DNA from: Myxococcales bacterium
Lineage (GTDB): Bacteria; Myxococcota; UBA727; VGSZ01
Reading direction: 5' to 3'
NCBI GenBank assembly: GCA_023248635.1
Contig: JAHFED010000012.1
Span: forward strand, 1 to 42,107
Length of the DNA stretch: 42,107 bases
Part shown: positions 12,086-30,691 of the stretch, piece by piece
Layout of the letters: each line of letters opens with the position of its first letter
How positions within the stretch are numbered: the stretch's first letter is position 1
Program-made: the position numbers and the translations under genes
Notes under the pieces: model-generated
Told to the model about the DNA's origin: nothing
The model's input: only the letters and a program-made list of their open reading frames with translations
Databases searched by the model: none

Positions 12086-12116
12086 ATTCTGTGCACTCAG
12101 GCCGGGTGGCCAATTC
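12086..12116 (+). repeat. Partial copy of the third hairpin of the palindromic element
   Basis: This stretch, which contains CAGGCCGGGTGGCCAATTCG, matches the reverse complement of the right half of the 18963-19094 element: ATTCTGTG, then CTCAGGCCGGG, then GGCCAATT. The palindrome is only half present, because the right arm is replaced by CGCGTCGCG. The rest of the 452-base gap 11920-12371 shows no gene apart from the palindrome before the recombinase. Confidence 0.6.
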
Positions 12117-18062: not shown

Positions 18063-18838
18063 ATGCTGACCCGACTCTCGCCCCTCTCTCTTGCAGCCCG
18101 ACTGTTCACCGCGACCCTCGTCGCTGCCCCCGCCGCTGCGATCCCTCCTGCCGAAGATCCGGCACCCGTTCCTGCGACCGGCGCCATCGATGTCCCCACC
18201 AATCCGCTCATCCTGGTCAAGGACAACGGCGTCGAGCTGCGCCTCATCGACGACGCCGACGTCGGGGTGGGGCTGAACGTCGCCGAGGTCGCGGGCCACT
18301 TCGTCTCGCTGCTTCGGGTGACGGTGGCCGAGCCGCTGCACCCCAACACGCGGTATCGGCTCCTGGCTCGCAACGAGGGCGAAGGACGGGAGCTCAGCTC
18401 CTTCACCACGGGCAGCGGCGCCGACGACGCAGCACCCGGCCTTCCCCAGCTCAACGATCGCGGTGCCTTTGCCGGCGGCCGTGCGGCGCTCGGCATCGAG
18501 AGCGACGAGCCCATCGAGGTCGTGCGCGTGGGCTCATCCGAAGGGACCTACTTCGACTTCGTCGACGCCGGTGGCATCTCCGTTCTCGGCGAGCCGGACG
18601 CCGTGTCGCCCTTTTCCATCGTCGCGCTCGATCTGCCGGCAATGAGTCGCCGTCGGCCAGCATCGAACTCCAGCTGGGGCCGCCCAGCGAATTCGGCTTC
18701 GACGATGCCTTGCTCGCGGCCGGATGCGCGAGCGCACCGACGAGCACCGCAGCCCCGGCCGCTCCCCTGGCGGTGCTGGCGCTCATCAGCGTGTCTCGAC
18801 GTCGCGACCGCGTTCGCAACGGGCGATCGAAGGCCTGA
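18063..18838 (+). pseudogene. Secreted Ig-like protein with MYXO-CTERM-like tail, frameshifted
   Basis: The first frame gives a signal peptide (MLTRLSPLSLAARLFTATLV, cleavage after AAPAAA) and a bacterial Ig-like (SbsA/Big_5-type) domain: GAIDVPTNPLILVKDNGVEL through HPNTRYRLLARNEGEG. A second beta-rich region ends FSIVALDLPA. At about 18640 the coding signal moves by one base to GNESPSASIELQLGPPSEFG and ends GCASAPTS, a hydrophobic run (LAVLALISV) and SRRRDRVRNGRSKA. This tail is a good MYXO-CTERM-like sorting signal. Read without the shift, the product has a long Arg/Pro-rich tail and no anchor. It could be a true mutation or a sequence error. Confidence 0.7.
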
Positions 18839-18962
18839 GAGCTGTGTCGTCGTCGATGTCGTCGCCGCTGCCGTCGCCGCCGTCGTCGGCTCTGCCATCG
18901 CCGACACTCCCCCCTTGCTCGTTCTTCACCTACCCGCGGAGGGCTTCACGACTCTCGATGAG

Positions 18963-19094
18963 AATTCACCGACAGCGCTGGGCGTGTCGGTGAATTGTCT
19001 ACAGGTTCATCGCCTGGCGGCGATGAATTCTCTGCCCTCAAGCCGGGCGGCCAATTGGCCGCCCGGCCTGAGCCACAGAATCCCCGACAACAAG
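18963..19094. mobile_element. Triple-hairpin palindromic element with 13-bp flanking direct repeats
   Basis: The 132-bp segment is bounded by perfect copies of GACTCTCGATGAG (18950-18962 and 19095-19107), which look like a target-site duplication. Inside are three palindromes in a row: AATTCACCGACA / TGTCGGTGAATT (18963-18996), TTCATCGCC-TGGC-GGCGATGAA (19006-19027), and a 26-base perfect palindrome GCCGGGCGGCCAA / TTGGCCGCCCGGC (19042-19067) extended by CTCA / TGAG. There is no coding capacity, so it resembles a MITE or REP-type element moved by a transposase elsewhere. Related pieces occur at 12086-12116 and inside the gene at 23159. Confidence 0.7.
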
Positions 19095-19169
19095 GACTCT
19101 CGATGAGCGTGCAGGGTGCCGTCTGTCGTGCCGCTCGCCAGGTGTCGTGCACGCGGATATTCCACGCTG

Positions 19170-21338
<2,169 letters not shown>

Positions 21339-22923: not shown

Positions 22924-22945
22924 TTGAGCCGTGCTCACGGCTCAA
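22924..22945 (+). terminator. Perfect hairpin after the DUF6600-like gene
   Basis: TTGAGCCGTG and CACGGCTCAA form a 10-bp stem with a two-base gap, 20 bases after the stop. There is no T-run, so it is a terminator of the stem-only type or an mRNA 3' stabiliser. Confidence 0.4.
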
Positions 22946-23158
22946 CATCAGCCCCGAGGCAGGAGGCCACGAAGCACCTTGGCCTTGCCAACGGTGCAAC
23001 GGGAAGCACTCCGGCGTGCCCCGTGGCGCAACGCGGGAAGCGCTCTGGCGTCGGTGGCGCGCGACCGCGCAAAAAGACGATCCGCTTCGGACTGGGACAC
23101 CTTGGGGCAAGGCCAGCAAGCAGGACGACCAGCGCGCGAACCTGCGGGCGAGGTGGTC

Positions 23159-26100
23159 ATGTCGATGTTTCGCCTCGCGCACGCCTCGTTGGTGATCGGC
23201 TTGGCGGTGGGTGGCGGTTGCCGGTTGACGGCCAACGGCGGCAACGACGAGGGAGCACAGAGCCCCGACAGCGAAGGCGCCACGGGCCGCGGCAGCGGCA
23301 GCACGGAGAGCCCCGATGGCGATGGCGACGACGCCAGCCCCGGCGCCAACGATGGCGACGATCTGGACGTGGTCGGCGACGACGGCGGCCAAGATCCCGG
23401 CGGGATCGGCGACGAAACGGGCAAGGGCAGCGGGGGCAAGGGGAGCAAGGATCCGATCAGCGACGACGGCGGCGACGGCGACAGCGCCGACGACGACGAC
23501 GGCGGTGAAACGATCGGCGACCACGATGGAATCGTCGACCCAGATCAAGATCACGACGGTGTTTCTGCTGCGGCGGACTGCAATGACGACGACGCCCTCA
23601 TCGCGCCCACCATGGTCGAAACACCATTTAATGGCCTTGATGATGACTGCAGATCAGACACACTGGATCAACAGCCCTGGAAAAACAGCGTTGATTATCG
23701 CAGCGGAATCTGCACGACCTGGGGCGACACCCACATCACGACCTGCGATGGAACGCTGTATAACTTTCAGGCCGTTGGCGACTTTGTTTTTCTGCAAAAC
23801 GCCGAGCAGACCTTCGTGGTGCAGGTTCGTCAGGTTCCCTATGCGCCCAACGACACCTCCCTCGCCGTCAACCAGGTCATTGGCGTCAAGGTCGGCGGCG
23901 ACGTCGTCGTTGCTCATGCCATCGGCAGCGGGGCCCTGGCCGTGACCGTCAACGGCGACGTCATCGCCGCCAACGGGTTGATCTTGGCCAACGACGCCGC
24001 GGTGGTGCGCCGGGCTGGCAACCAGATCGAAATCCTCTTCGCCGACGGCACGGCCATCTTCATCACGGCTCGTGCTCCCCGGGCCGATGCCTCCGTTTTG
24101 GATATGATTTTGAGCCTCGATAACAGTCATTCAAACCAAGTGTTAGGGCTGGGAGGAAAGTTCAACGCAGACCCGAGCGACGACTTTCAAGCCCGCGACG
24201 AAGACCTGACCCTGAGCCCGACCTCGCCCCTCACGCTCTACGGCTTCTTCGCCCACTCCTGGCGCGTGCGCGAGGGTGAGTCGATCCTGAACGACCAGTT
24301 CGTCGCCGCCGTCGACCCGGTCGTGGCCGTCGGCTTCCCCGCGCAGGTCACGGCCATCGACGACCTCCCCGAGCACCTGCGTGCCGCCGCGCGCGACCTC
24401 TGCGTGGCGGCGGGACTCGAGGACGAGGGCTTGCTGGGGGCGTGCACCCTCGATGTGGCCCTGAGCGGCGACGCTGGCTTTGCGGACCTCAGCGCCGCGA
24501 TGCCCGCTCCCGCCCACGACGAGCCCGTGGAGAGGGGCGGCGGCTGCGCCTCCTGGGGCGATCCCCATGTGACCACTTTTGATGGACTCGCCTACGATTT
24601 TCAGCAAGCAGGCATCTTCACCATTGCCGAGAGCTTTGATCACCAGGTGCTCGTGCAAGCTCTGCAGCAATATTTGCCTGGTTCAAACCGCGTGGCGGTC
24701 AACACGGCAGTAGGGGCCGTCGCCGACGGCGATCGCGTGACCTTCAACTTGAAAAATGGGCTCTCCATCAACGTCAACGGCGTCGCCTTCGTTGGCGCTG
24801 GTCTCCTGCCCGGCGGCGCCACGCTCTCGGGCAGCGGATCCTGGCGCGTCCTGCATTGGTCCACCGGCGACGAGCTGCTGGTGGGCAGCGCGGGCTCCCA
24901 TCTCAATTTCTTCGTCTCCGTGCCCCATGATCGTCGCCACGGGATCTCGGGCCTCTGTGGTCACTACAGCGGCACCACCCTCGACGACTTTCAATTGCGG
25001 GACGGGACCTTTGGCGCTTGGCCTCGCTCCCAAGCCGAGCTCGGGGCCGGCTTTGGCGCGTCGTGGCGGGTGTCCCCGCAGGATTCGATCGTGGACCTCC
25101 CACCGGCGAGCGCCGACGTCGGCGCGGATGCTCCATCGGCCCTCACGCTGGGCGACTTTGATGACGCAGCCAAAGCCGCAGCCGCAGCTGTTTGCCGCGC
25201 GGCGGGCGTCGTCGATCCGACGGTCTTGCGCATGTGCACCTTCGACGTGGCCGCCACTTCAGATCCAGATTTTGCCACCAGCGCCGCACGGATTCCGGCC
25301 CCCTCTGCTGGTCATCTCAACGACTACTTTATCGGCGAGAATCTGACCTGCATTGCCACCGATGTGTACGGCATCGACCCCGCTGATGGGCAGTGCACCC
25401 ATTTCGAAAATCTCTGCGCCATGCCGGTGGATTTCATCCCCTGCGACGCTGTCGATGCTGTCGATCCCACGACTCCCATCGACGCAGATCCGGCGCTCCC
25501 CGGCGATGACAGCGATCCCGCAGTGTCGCCCGGAGCTGCGGAATTCACCGACAGCGCTCCGCCTGGCGGCGATGCACTGTCCGCAGGTTCATCGCCTGGC
25601 GGCGATGCACTGTCTGCAGGTTCATCGCCTGGCGGCGATGCACTGTCTGCAGGTTCATCGCCTGGCGGCGATGCACTGTCTGCAGGTTCATCGCCTGGCG
25701 GCGACGAAATACCCTTTAATGGCATCGACGATGACAACGACATTGGCACAGCCGATCAGCAGCCCTGGAAGAACGCTGCAGAGTATCGCAATGGAACCTG
25801 CGTGAGCTGGGGCGATACCCACATCACGACCTGCGATGGCACCTACTACGACTTCCAAGGCATCGGTGATTTCGTCTTTCTACAGGATGAAAGTCAGAGC
25901 TTCGTCGTGCAAGTTCGCCAAGTCCCCTATCCAGTCGGCAGCCCGTCCGTCGCGGTGAACCGGGTGATCGGCGTCAGCGTAGGCGACGACGTCGTGGTCG
26001 CTCATGCCCTGACGGGGGGCGGCCTGGGTGTGACGCTCAATGGTGAGATCACTACAGCCACGGATGTTCTCGCAGTGAATGATACCGGCATGGTGAGGCG

Positions 26101-29100
26101 CGATGGTGACACAATAGAAATTGTGTTCACCAGCGGAACGGCGATCTTTATTTCGGCCCGAGCGCCGCGTCCTGATGCCGCCATTTTGGACATGGTCATC
26201 AGCGTCGACCCGAGCTTTGCCGGTCACCTGCTGGGCCTCGGCGGAAAATACAACAGCGATCCACGCGATGATTTTCAGGCCCGCGACGAAGACCTCCTCC
26301 TGAATCCCACCGCACCCCTGACGCTTTATGGCTTCTTCGCCAAGAGCTGGCGGGTGCGCGCCGGCGAATCGATTCTCGACGACCGTTTCGTTCCCGAGAA
26401 CGATGCGGTCTTCGCGGCCGCCTTTCCGACGCAGGTGCGCACGAAGGACGATGTCCCCGAGCAGGCGCGCCTCGCTGCGCGCGAAGTCTGCGCGGCGGCG
26501 GGCATCGAGGACGAAGGCCTGTTGGCGGCCTGCACCCTGGATGTCGCACTCACCGGCGACGCTGGCTTCGCGTTTTCGAGCGCCGCCGTCCCCGCTCCGG
26601 CCCGGCAGGAGCCCTTCGGTCACGGCGGCGGATGCGCGTCGGCGGGCGACCCACATTTAATTACCTTTGATGGCTTGGCCTACGACTTTCAGCAGACAGG
26701 TGTGTTCACGCTCGCCGAGACCTTTGATCGCCAGATGATCGTCCAAGCTCTGCAGCTTCCTTGGTTTGGATCGACACGCGTCGCCGTGAATGCAGCGGTG
26801 GGGGCGCTCGCCGACGGTGACCGTGTCGTCTTCTCCCTGACCCACGGGCTGTCGGTCGAGGTCAACGGCGTCGCCTTCACGGGGACCGGGGCCTTGCCGG
26901 GTGGCGCCACGCTGTCGGGCAGCGGGTCATGGCGGAGCCTGCGTTGGTCGACGGGCGACGAGTTGCTGGTTTCCAGCGGTGGCACCCATCTTAATTTCTT
27001 CCTCTCTGTTCCCCAGGAGCGGCGGGAGCACATTGCTGGGCTGTGCGGCTACTACAGCGGCAGGGCCCGCGACGAATTTCGCTTGCGCGATGGGACCTTC
27101 GCCGCTTGGCCGCGGTCCCAGGCGACGCTCTACGCTGAGTTCGGCTCCTCTTGGCGTGTATCTCCAGAAGATTCAATGATCCAAATGGAAGAGGCGGAGA
27201 TCTCCGCTGATTTTCCATCTAGTATTGCCACGCTCGATGATTTCAGCGCCGACGAGCAGGCCAGCGCGCAAGCCGCCTGTCGGGCCGCCGGCGTCGTGCA
27301 TCCGGCGGTCTTGACCATGTGTATTTTCGACGTCGTCGCAACCCTCGATGTGGCATTCGCCGTCGGAGACGCGTGGATCCCAGCACCCTCTTCAGGGCAG
27401 CTCGCCGACTACTTCATCGGCCAAAATAGTTCCTGTGATGGCACCGCCATTTTCGGCGTCAATTCGACCGGAAAGTGTGTGGCCTTCAGCGATCTCTGCG
27501 CCATGCCGGTGGATGTGGTCCCCTGCGATCCGCTGGAGCAGCCCCTCGAGCCGCCGAGCGAAATCACCACGACGCCGGAGTCTCCGGGCGTGAGCGTCGA
27601 CATCGGCGCAACCGGATACACCTCCCCGGGCTATTCCGTTTACTTCTACAACGACGAAGCCTGCCAACATGACGCCATCGCCACCGCTGTGGGTGATGAT
27701 GATGGCGTATTTTCGTTGTCTTTGACTGTGCTGAACAATCAGGAGACCCGGCTGTACGCCGACGTCAGCGACCAGCTTGGATCCTGGTCTTCCTGTGTCA
27801 TGGCCATTGATTACATCCACGATGATCAAGGCCCGGCCCAACCCAGCGACGTCGGCTTGAGCGCGACGTCGGGCAGCGCCCAGATCGTCACGGTGTCGGG
27901 CCAGGCCGAAGCTGAGGTCTGGGTGGAGCTCTTCGCCTCCGTCGGCTGCAGCGGTGACGACGTGCTCGCGGCACGGGCGAATGCCGCTGGGGCCTTTGCT
28001 CTCCCTGCCACCCCGCTCTACTGCGCAACCACCGCCTTTTCGCTGCGCTTGCGCGACGCAGCCGGCAATCTCTCGGCTTGCCTCGACGTCGGCACCTACG
28101 CGCACCACCCCTTGGCCGAAGACAACAGCGGGTGCGGGCCCTACCGGACCTGCGGAGAGGACGTCGGCGGACCGGCCTGCGTCGACGTCGACGAGTGCGA
28201 GACCGACAACGGCGGCTGCGACCCCAGCGCTGCCTGCACGAACAACGATGGAGCCGCGCCGACCTGCGGTGACACCGACGAATGCCAGACCAACAATGGC
28301 GGCTGCGGCGCCTTCAGGTCCTGCACGAACAACGAGGGAGCCCCGCCCACCTGCACGGACGTCGACGAGTGCCAGACGAACAACGGCGGCTGCGGCCCGC
28401 GCCAGGGCTGCACCAACAACGACGGAGCGGCGCCGACCTGTGCCGATCTGGTCTACCCGGTCGCGCTGTCGACGGGGGCCGGCCCGCACATCTGCGCCCT
28501 GATGAGCGATGCCAGCGCCCGCTGCTGGGGCAACAATGTGGGCGGACAAGTGGGAATGGGCAGCACGGCCGTTGCCGATTGGGACATTTCGATCCCGCGA
28601 ACGGTGATCGTTGGACCCGGGACGCCGCTGACGAACGTGAACACAGTTTCAACGGGTGATGGTCGAAGCCAAAACACCTGCGCCCTCGACGCCAGCGGGG
28701 CCCTTTTCTGTTGGGGCTCTGGCGACAAGGGCCAGCTCGGGACGGGCTCCAACTCGACGCAGAGCCAGGCGACGCCCGTGGTGCGGCCGGCGGGGTGGGA
28801 GGCAAGTCGCGTTTGGCAGCAGGTGGAAGCAGGGGATCGGCACGTGACCTGCGCGGTTTCCGCGGGTGAAGCCTATTGCTTTGGCGAAGATGCCTGGGGA
28901 GCCTTGGGCAATGACGCCGTGCACACCAATCGAAACATTCCCGTAAAAGTCGGTGGCAGCGAGTGGAACGAGGACGTACTACAAGTAAGCACAGGGGGAT
29001 TTCATGCCTGTGCTCTGGTCGATGAGCACAATGGCACCACAGGTGTGTATTGTTGGGGCGATACCCGCCATGCCAGTGGCCCCAACGACACCTGGCTGCC

Positions 29101-30691
29101 ACAGCGCGTATTTCCGGACGTCACCGACGCCACGCAGGTGAACGCGAGCTACTCGCACACCTGCGTTCTCACCAGCAGGGGCGAGGTCTGGTGCGCCGGC
29201 GACAACGCGCTGGGCGCCACCGGTGGGGCCGCATGGGGGTCACCACCCGCACCCGTCGCCGGCTTTGGGTCGAGCCCCGGAGAGAAGCCAGCAAAGCGCG
29301 TGATCACGGGTAGCAACATCAGCTGCGCCTTGGTCGATGAAAACGCAACCACCAGCGCCTACTGCTGGGGCGTCAACAATCACTATTCTCTCGGCATCGA
29401 CCTGCCGTACATCGTTGCAATACCGACGCGCATCCAGGGAACCGGGAACGTGCAAGACGTCGTCATCAACGGCCGCAGCCTCTGCACTTTGAACGACCAG
29501 CACCGGGTCTTGTGCCGCGGTGACAACCTGCGTGGCTTTCTGGGTACAGGCACGGTCATGACGTCGAAGAACCCTGTCACTGTGCGCGACCTGAGCGGGG
29601 CCCAGGCCTTGGCGCTGGGGCACCGGCACAGCTGCGCGCTCGACGCCCAGGGTGCCTGGTGCTGGGGCGACAACGCCAGCGGCCAGCTGGGAGATGGCAG
29701 CCTCATGAATTGGGATGTGCCCGTCGCCGTGGAGCACTCCGCCGGCGCCACCCAAATCGTGGCCGGGCGTTTCCACACCTGTTTGCTCGCCGCCGACGCG
29801 ACGGTTTCCTGCACAGGAGACAACAGCGTGGGTGCGCTCGGGCTGGAACCCCTGGGGGGCACGCGCAACAGCGCCGACGTCGCCGTTGCTGGGCTCAGCA
29901 ACGTGGTCGCTCTTGACAGCAGCGCCGAGCACACTTGCGCCATTGCCCAAGAGGGTGGCACCAACAAACTATATTGTTGGGGCCTCAACAACAAAGGTCA
30001 GCTTGGCGATGGCGGTCTCAGCAACCGGGCCTCGATCGGTGCGGCGGTCACCCTGCCCCAAGAGCCGAGGGCAGTGGCGACGGGCGACGAGCACACCTGC
30101 GTGCTGCTGCCGGATTCTACTGTCCAGTGTTGGGGTGCAAACACCTACGGTCAACTGGGTAATCTTTCCAATGTCGATGCGTTGACGCCTGTGCAAGTCA
30201 AGAATGCATCGACCACCCTCACGCTCACAGGAATCGTCCAAATCGCCGCCGGCAGCTCCCATGTCTGCGCGCTCAATGACAGTGGATCGGTGTATTGCTG
30301 GGGCTGGTATCGGGGCCCCAATGGCTCGGCCACCTACGCCAGGAATGCTGCCACGGCCTACAATCCGGGCGGCGTCGCGACGTCGATCTCTGCTGGCGGC
30401 ATGGCGACCTGTGCGCTCTTGGCTGACCAGTCCGCCAAGTATTGGTCGGGTTTCTGGCCGCCGAGCAGCGAATTCGGGGGCATCAACAACAACCTCTACA
30501 CCTACGAGGACAATGCTCCGGGCACCTTCGCCGGCATCAGCGACGGCGGCGGCATCGCCTGCGGGCCCGTGCATGCTTGCGTGGTCCGCGACGACGAGAC
30601 GGTCGCCTGCTTGGGCCAGGGGCTCTTTGGCCAGTTGGGCGACGACAACGCCTGGGCCGTTGACTTCGTGCAGGCGCTCAACCTCGATTGA
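23159..30691 (+). CDS. Giant lipoprotein with four VWD modules, half-EGF repeats and RCC1 propellers
   Basis: The product is 2510 residues. Signal MSMFRLAHASLVIGLAVGGG ends at a Cys (loose lipobox). Domains in order: a Gly/Asp-rich linker (to ~135); a MopE-type DCNDDD ... NGLDDDC motif (~140-172); VWD 1 (CTTWGDTH, ~183); VWD 2 (CASWGDPH, ~462); a second MopE motif split by a repeat insert (~785-860); VWD 3 (CVSWGDTH, ~880); VWD 4 (CASAGDPH, ~1157); beta-sandwich repeats (~1470-1645); three DVDECQTNNGGC units with only four Cys each (~1655-1760); and 14 RCC1-type repeats (CAL ... CWGDN..GQLG, 1765-2510), enough for two seven-bladed propellers. Repeat 13 has KYWSG in place of CWG. VWD 1-2 and 3-4 are an internal duplication. 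GAGGTGG precedes the ATG at 23159. A cell-surface adhesion or binding role is inferred. Confidence 0.85.
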   Translation: MSMFRLAHASLVIGLAVGGGCRLTANGGNDEGAQSPDSEGATGRGSGSTESPDGDGDDASPGANDGDDLDVVGDDGGQDPGGIGDETGKGSGGKGSKDPISDDGGDGDSADDDDGGETIGDHDGIVDPDQDHDGVSAAADCNDDDALIAPTMVETPFNGLDDDCRSDTLDQQPWKNSVDYRSGICTTWGDTHITTCDGTLYNFQAVGDFVFLQNAEQTFVVQVRQVPYAPNDTSLAVNQVIGVKVGGDVVVAHAIGSGALAVTVNGDVIAANGLILANDAAVVRRAGNQIEILFADGTAIFITARAPRADASVLDMILSLDNSHSNQVLGLGGKFNADPSDDFQARDEDLTLSPTSPLTLYGFFAHSWRVREGESILNDQFVAAVDPVVAVGFPAQVTAIDDLPEHLRAAARDLCVAAGLEDEGLLGACTLDVALSGDAGFADLSAAMPAPAHDEPVERGGGCASWGDPHVTTFDGLAYDFQQAGIFTIAESFDHQVLVQALQQYLPGSNRVAVNTAVGAVADGDRVTFNLKNGLSINVNGVAFVGAGLLPGGATLSGSGSWRVLHWSTGDELLVGSAGSHLNFFVSVPHDRRHGISGLCGHYSGTTLDDFQLRDGTFGAWPRSQAELGAGFGASWRVSPQDSIVDLPPASADVGADAPSALTLGDFDDAAKAAAAAVCRAAGVVDPTVLRMCTFDVAATSDPDFATSAARIPAPSAGHLNDYFIGENLTCIATDVYGIDPADGQCTHFENLCAMPVDFIPCDAVDAVDPTTPIDADPALPGDDSDPAVSPGAAEFTDSAPPGGDALSAGSSPGGDALSAGSSPGGDALSAGSSPGGDALSAGSSPGGDEIPFNGIDDDNDIGTADQQPWKNAAEYRNGTCVSWGDTHITTCDGTYYDFQGIGDFVFLQDESQSFVVQVRQVPYPVGSPSVAVNRVIGVSVGDDVVVAHALTGGGLGVTLNGEITTATDVLAVNDTGMVRRDGDTIEIVFTSGTAIFISARAPRPDAAILDMVISVDPSFAGHLLGLGGKYNSDPRDDFQARDEDLLLNPTAPLTLYGFFAKSWRVRAGESILDDRFVPENDAVFAAAFPTQVRTKDDVPEQARLAAREVCAAAGIEDEGLLAACTLDVALTGDAGFAFSSAAVPAPARQEPFGHGGGCASAGDPHLITFDGLAYDFQQTGVFTLAETFDRQMIVQALQLPWFGSTRVAVNAAVGALADGDRVVFSLTHGLSVEVNGVAFTGTGALPGGATLSGSGSWRSLRWSTGDELLVSSGGTHLNFFLSVPQERREHIAGLCGYYSGRARDEFRLRDGTFAAWPRSQATLYAEFGSSWRVSPEDSMIQMEEAEISADFPSSIATLDDFSADEQASAQAACRAAGVVHPAVLTMCIFDVVATLDVAFAVGDAWIPAPSSGQLADYFIGQNSSCDGTAIFGVNSTGKCVAFSDLCAMPVDVVPCDPLEQPLEPPSEITTTPESPGVSVDIGATGYTSPGYSVYFYNDEACQHDAIATAVGDDDGVFSLSLTVLNNQETRLYADVSDQLGSWSSCVMAIDYIHDDQGPAQPSDVGLSATSGSAQIVTVSGQAEAEVWVELFASVGCSGDDVLAARANAAGAFALPATPLYCATTAFSLRLRDAAGNLSACLDVGTYAHHPLAEDNSGCGPYRTCGEDVGGPACVDVDECETDNGGCDPSAACTNNDGAAPTCGDTDECQTNNGGCGAFRSCTNNEGAPPTCTDVDECQTNNGGCGPRQGCTNNDGAAPTCADLVYPVALSTGAGPHICALMSDASARCWGNNVGGQVGMGSTAVADWDISIPRTVIVGPGTPLTNVNTVSTGDGRSQNTCALDASGALFCWGSGDKGQLGTGSNSTQSQATPVVRPAGWEASRVWQQVEAGDRHVTCAVSAGEAYCFGEDAWGALGNDAVHTNRNIPVKVGGSEWNEDVLQVSTGGFHACALVDEHNGTTGVYCWGDTRHASGPNDTWLPQRVFPDVTDATQVNASYSHTCVLTSRGEVWCAGDNALGATGGAAWGSPPAPVAGFGSSPGEKPAKRVITGSNISCALVDENATTSAYCWGVNNHYSLGIDLPYIVAIPTRIQGTGNVQDVVINGRSLCTLNDQHRVLCRGDNLRGFLGTGTVMTSKNPVTVRDLSGAQALALGHRHSCALDAQGAWCWGDNASGQLGDGSLMNWDVPVAVEHSAGATQIVAGRFHTCLLAADATVSCTGDNSVGALGLEPLGGTRNSADVAVAGLSNVVALDSSAEHTCAIAQEGGTNKLYCWGLNNKGQLGDGGLSNRASIGAAVTLPQEPRAVATGDEHTCVLLPDSTVQCWGANTYGQLGNLSNVDALTPVQVKNASTTLTLTGIVQIAAGSSHVCALNDSGSVYCWGWYRGPNGSATYARNAATAYNPGGVATSISAGGMATCALLADQSAKYWSGFWPPSSEFGGINNNLYTYEDNAPGTFAGISDGGGIACGPVHACVVRDDETVACLGQGLFGQLGDDNAWAVDFVQALNLD
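25544..25708 (+). repeat. In-frame 165-nt tandem insert (five 33-nt units)
   Basis: Four 33-base units plus a partial fifth encode SPGGDALSAGS repeats. They sit between PGAAE and IPFNGIDDD, splitting a MopE motif that is continuous in the first half of the protein. GAA occurs at both edges (25541-25543 and 25706-25708). The first 18 bases from 25541 (GAATTCACCGACAGCGCT) are identical to 18962-18979, and TTCATCGCCTGGCGGCGAT matches the second hairpin of the 18963-19094 element. The insert thus derives from that element and then expanded. Confidence 0.8.

Follow-up and report, generated by a model that had tools for sequence, protein, structure and literature searches.

A stretch of five 33-nt units inside the open frame of a giant lipoprotein gene derives, with a probability that we put at about 0.87, from a recently spread, non-autonomous palindromic element, one copy of which was captured in frame and then duplicated in tandem. 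The genome holds a family of the same DNA that is seen to have spread recently, to have entered existing genes in frame and to have been duplicated locally. At the level of sequence comparison, insertion in frame can be seen from orthologues for the other genes involved, and for the lipoprotein from paralogous segments together with the restoration of a protein motif once the insert is left out. By the window we mean the whole stretch of DNA that was analysed (42,107 nt).

An insert that splits a MopE-type motif

The host gene (22931-30691, plus strand) encodes a giant lipoprotein whose VWD domains and RCC1 repeats are accompanied by two MopE-type motifs. It also carries other low-complexity stretches, and at 28189-28440 an 87-nt sequence, present three times in tandem, encodes Cys-rich EGF-like units (DECQTNNGGCG...). 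Elsewhere in the window, hexanucleotide arrays (3826-3961, 4788-4912, 5933-5988, 7576-7698 and 19252-19345) encode GEGEGE linkers directly after the lipoprotein signal of several genes.

The insert (plus strand) can be placed either at 25541-25705, where it starts with GAATTC, or at 25544-25708, with the duplicated GAA codon put at the right end, since a GAA codon is present at both ends. In the first placement it is read as the peptide EFTDSAPPGGD followed by four copies of ALSAGSSPGGD. The original prediction of a 165-nt insert of 5 x 33 nt was borne out by the sequence itself and by Tandem Repeats Finder, which delimits a repeat at 25560-25704 with a period of 33, 4.4 copies and 99% matches. 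The prediction had also placed the insert within a MopE-type motif, and this agrees with the domain scores. The motif (25481-25741, plus strand) is interrupted between DADPALPGDDSDPAVSPGAAE and IPFNGIDDDND; when the flanks are joined without the insert (PGAAEIPFNGIDDDND) the motif is recognised at 29.6 bits, above the Pfam cut-off of 27, and with the insert left in it is found in two pieces at 25.7 bits, below the cut-off. The other motif of the protein, in its first half (23576-23650, plus strand), had been proposed as an unsplit control and does serve as one, along with two further paralogues (C59 and C41): in all three of these segments of the same genome the motif is unsplit and the insert is absent. 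No orthologue of the giant lipoprotein was found in the 18 relatives searched, so we infer its own empty site from these paralogues.

A dispersed family of short modules joined at AATT

The first 18 bases of the insert, GAATTCACCGACAGCGCT, are identical to the start of an element at 18962, as had been claimed. This element (18962-19030, plus strand) is a complete pair of one 30-nt module A (AATTCACCGACAGCGCTTCGCGTGTCGGTG) and one 33-nt module B (AATTGTCTACAGGTTCATCGCCTGGCGGCGATG) with terminal GAATT, and is abutted by a palindromic module C (19026-19080, plus strand) made of two 27-nt halves joined at CAATTG. Module C (AATTCTCTGCCCTCAGGCCGGGCGGCC, 27 nt) is also found as its mirror and is present only sometimes; 37 halves of it occur across the fetched loci, some of them in frame (EFSALRPGGQ, LAARPEGREF), and a diverged half copy lies at 12089-12111. 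The element at 18962 was called intergenic, and it falls within the tail of an ORF (18063-19106) that is apparently frameshifted about two thirds along, where it is read as NSPTALGVSVNCLQVHRLAAM.

Throughout the genome (6.53 Mb in 135 contigs) the core of B was found 245 times (a 24-mer of the second hairpin, allowing up to three mismatches) and that of A 135 times (a 35-mer of the first hairpin), counts that are probably lower bounds given that several arrays are at the ends of contigs or close to them (L135, L144, L076, L096, L081), where this fragmented assembly probably breaks or collapses. Reversed-pattern controls for both cores gave no match in the whole genome, and the agreement of the insert with the dispersed element is thus far beyond chance. 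Most of the known sites were fetched with their flanks and 114 arrays were parsed. The arrays of A and B DNA number more than 100, are mostly outside genes and occur in both orientations. A search of Rfam gave no match to the element.

The modular structure of the arrays is very regular. The segments running from one AATT to the next peak at 30 nt (128 segments), 33 nt (137) and 27 nt (14), and AATT itself has a density of 29.7 per kb within modules versus 0.79 per kb outside, in DNA of 65% G+C. Modules are chained head to tail in types such as AB, AAB, ABAB or ABBBB, with A-B, B-A and B-B joints dominating, and complete AB units are usually flanked by GAATT at left and right. The hairpins of A and B fold far better than shuffled sequences (z of -7.7 and -5.1). 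Within the genome the copies are too uniform to offer enough compensatory changes for analysis. Two further palindromic families, often beside A/B arrays, were found in the fetched loci, one with the core GCCGTTGGCACGGC (L130, L163, L073; 20 core matches) and the other with the core CAAGACGCTGGCGCGTCTTG (L118, L146, L098, L107; 23 core matches). At L098 the latter seems to supply an in-frame stretch of the MshEN protein (FKTRQRLEHPNFKTE).

That the repeat is an old linker minisatellite, produced by slippage in the lipoprotein gene without any mobile element, is hardly credible against this background. Its near-perfect, in-frame units and the low complexity of other parts of the gene are what slippage could produce, but the same DNA, and not the peptide alone, is found in over a hundred other arrays, mostly non-genic and in both orientations, the paralogous segments do not have the repeat, and the left end of the insert is the left end of module A.

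Tandem growth within the lipoprotein gene

The 18962 element's second hairpin had been said to recur in each 33-nt unit of the insert. It is indeed present in all of them, but the first unit (25541-25573, plus strand) needs a refined description: by sequence comparison it appears to be a hybrid in which the left-hand 18 nt of module A are fused to the right half of B, as would result from a 30-nt deletion of an AB pair. Units 2 to 5 (25574-25705, plus strand) are tandem B modules that depart from the B consensus by GAATTG to GCACTG and by CTAC to CTGC or CCGC. The resulting combination, GCACTG with C(T/C)GCAGG, is common to these four units and is confined to this array among the 207 B modules of the fetched loci, the remaining 203 all lacking it. 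Such private changes indicate that the units arose via tandem duplication in place. The predicted expansion therefore stands, but not as something special to this gene, because the element forms tandem arrays generally, intergenic copies included. Along the same lines, B copies are more alike within an array than between arrays (1.60 versus 2.49 differences, 0 of 500 shuffles).

According to our preferred reading, an AB copy would have inserted in frame into the lipoprotein gene, within the MopE-type metal-binding motif and at a GAA(T) site or next to one. A loss of 30 nt across the A-B joint would then have kept the reading frame, and the B unit would have been duplicated in place to four copies, giving the SPGGDALSAGS repeats. 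Three of the six frames of the AB consensus are open. The insert may be tolerated because its sense frame is free of stops, the peptide is hydrophilic and rich in Gly, Ser, Pro and Asp, and the module lengths are multiples of three, with all 11 of the genic chains measured and 73 of 83 others having lengths divisible by three. The effect on host proteins is probably close to neutral.

In-frame captures in other genes

At least 13 of the 114 parsed arrays are located in frame inside real genes, as judged by codon-usage score, Pfam domains and orthologues (gene calls came from a simple codon model plus homology). Besides the giant lipoprotein, these are aroA (L089), lipB (L099), tsaB (L090), an alpha/beta hydrolase (L115), a MerR regulator (L085), a lytic transglycosylase (L131), two Ser/Thr kinases (L113, L129), a PilZ-AMIN protein (L164), the MshEN protein (L098) and the tails of a histidine kinase (L106) and of a PLD-VTT protein (L132). 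By our count, ten of the 13 are read in the frame EFTDSASRVGELSTGSSPGGD and three in the antisense frame SSPPGDEPVDNSPTREALSVN. ORFs at eight other loci (L146, L103, L104, L125, L080, L105, L093, L079) were excluded, the array lying upstream of the likely start or the frame being probably an antisense shadow. Most of a bacterial genome is coding, and the small genic share (13 of 114) suggests that insertion into genes is mostly selected against. Nevertheless, aroA, lipB and tsaB are usually essential or near-essential genes.

The hydrolase is the cleanest case of an empty site. It reads RGGRSDRWS...DELRRLHEA in our genome (G000) versus RGGRSDRWSADEQERLRAA in the same-genus genome G002, and the extra stretch, absent in three relatives, is exactly 74 aa, that is, 222 nt or four B plus three A modules. 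In lipB two AB units separate GC from HxVExR, a junction at which the same-genus G001 reads GCHFHVVEHR and G002 GCHFHQVERR; about 20 more extra residues beside the element are left unexplained by it. For tsaB and aroA the insert is also absent in relatives, with flanking loops that align less surely. A second extra stretch in aroA, unrelated to the first, comprises some 16 residues (PAGLTQGPHVYALGLWQ) and sits immediately ahead of the conserved IDE motif, close to the active site. The MerR and PilZ inserts align in variable linkers, and the transglycosylase (slt) is a weaker case, with a single B in the inverted frame within a poorly conserved region. The claim that a palindromic element was captured in frame is thus upheld by the dispersal of the same DNA over more than 100 arrays and by in-frame copies elsewhere with empty orthologous sites in the same genus.

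One could also read the relationship in the opposite direction, with the intergenic elements being copies of coding repeats. In its favour, the modules keep lengths that are multiples of three outside genes too, where 73 of 83 chains are divisible by three. However, the intergenic copies show the intact consensus with both hairpins and it is the lipoprotein copy that is degraded (half of A lost, GAATTG changed to GCACTG), and the relatives of the host genes do not have the insert, all of which makes this direction very improbable. No relative was found to have the repeat in a gene while lacking the intergenic element.

Age and distribution of the family

The element has spread recently in this Myxococcota genome. 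Copies differ at about 2.2-2.5 positions in 33-35 nt, a low divergence that indicates a young family. We searched 38 relatives in all. G001 contains three copies that are clearly diverged, plus a 22-nt match, and the clearest of these copies keeps the two-hairpin fold, with an inner stem of A that has changed yet remains paired and a paired exchange in the stem of B. No copies were found in G002, nor in the other 36 (the family member G003 and 35 more), except for one 27-nt match in G019 (E 0.007). When a collection of 84,980 species genomes was searched with the A-B joint, the only match was the record of G001, an uncultured Myxococcales bin, and collections of viral contigs, plasmids and phages gave no match. 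Literature searches on palindromic elements in Myxococcota returned nothing relevant. A recent burst in this genome, set against a handful of diverged copies in one sister genome and their absence from a second, makes the age, the entry sites and the growth of the element directly testable.

How the copies may move

Both ends and every joint carry AATT, which points to insertion at this sequence or to joining through it. Clear target duplications were not seen at the left and right ends of the elements, and between nearby copies there are only ordinary genes, with no autonomous relative or transposase. A trans-acting activity may have moved the copies, or they may have arisen by copying that is primed by the hairpin and joins at AATT. 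A more speculative reading, which we consider doubtful, is that the modules are frame-compatible by construction, i.e., that they are selfish AATT-joined cassettes of 27, 30 and 33 nt, chained as if ligated, which act as a mobile protein linker and are moved by an AATT-joining activity. If so, the gain or loss of modules within genes would be silent to the frame. AATT joints combined with modules divisible by three offer a handle on how protein-coding palindromes spread.

Comparison with known palindromic elements

The original prediction drew a parallel with the palindromic elements of Rickettsia, which holds for behaviour; in sequence the two probably differ. The Rickettsia and Wolbachia elements (RPEs) are dispersed, palindromic, free of stops in a usable frame, found both between genes and, in frame, within conserved ones, and tolerated (PMC2229807, PMC10969869). 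Ours is likewise a dispersed family of hairpins with in-frame insertion into conserved genes and an empty site in orthologues. The differences are that RPEs are 105-150 nt long in Rickettsia, whereas here there are modules of 30, 33 and 27 nt in another phylum, every one a multiple of three, forming head-to-tail AATT-joined arrays. By lineage the element is outside the RPE families; the sole outside match of its A-B joint in the species collection is the same-genus Myxococcales bin, with no occurrence in Rickettsiales. A 2024 review held protein evolution by in-frame palindromic elements in prokaryotes beyond Rickettsia to be merely conceivable (PMC10969869), and intragenic REPs in other bacteria had been listed earlier (PMC3733652). 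The family described here adds a clear and recent case in a phylum unrelated to Rickettsia, with empty sites in the same genus and visible tandem growth.

REPs of the GTAG/CGTC type share with this family the short hairpins, the high copy number, the presence of some copies in ORFs, where REP clusters encode 43-82 residues (PMC3733652), and perhaps a GTAG/CTAC beside the hairpin. The CTAC beside hairpin B, read on the minus strand as a GTAG at a distance of two bases from the foot of hairpin A, is conserved in the copies of G001, yet it is internal to the AB unit. A classical GTAG-type family, moved by a RAYT (Y1) transposase and arranged in the usual REP dimers, would account for these features and for the copies in genes, but we think it unlikely. 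No Y1 transposase reaches the Pfam cut-off in this genome, against five of 14 control genomes that score; REP dimers are mostly inverted, and head-to-tail arrays are reported to be absent or under-represented (PMC3733652), whereas here head-to-tail joints dominate and two hairpins alternate; and the tag has been lost in the lipoprotein copy.

Among the miniature, non-autonomous elements (MITEs), Correia/NEMIS and ERIC are in some cases fused in frame to genes (PMC2229807). These have TA ends and longer bodies, unlike the present family, for which neither a TA duplication nor a matching insertion sequence was seen. In build, the family is reminiscent of BOX of Streptococcus pneumoniae, a modular composite, thought to be parasitic, in which one module occurs in variable tandem number and of which large copies can hold open frames (PMC3049150). 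Our family has A, B and C modules, with B, A and AB repeating in tandem. BOX follows the order boxA-(boxB)n-boxC with terminal repeats resembling ISSpn2, whereas the notable feature of the Myxococcota element is its in-frame capture in conserved genes.
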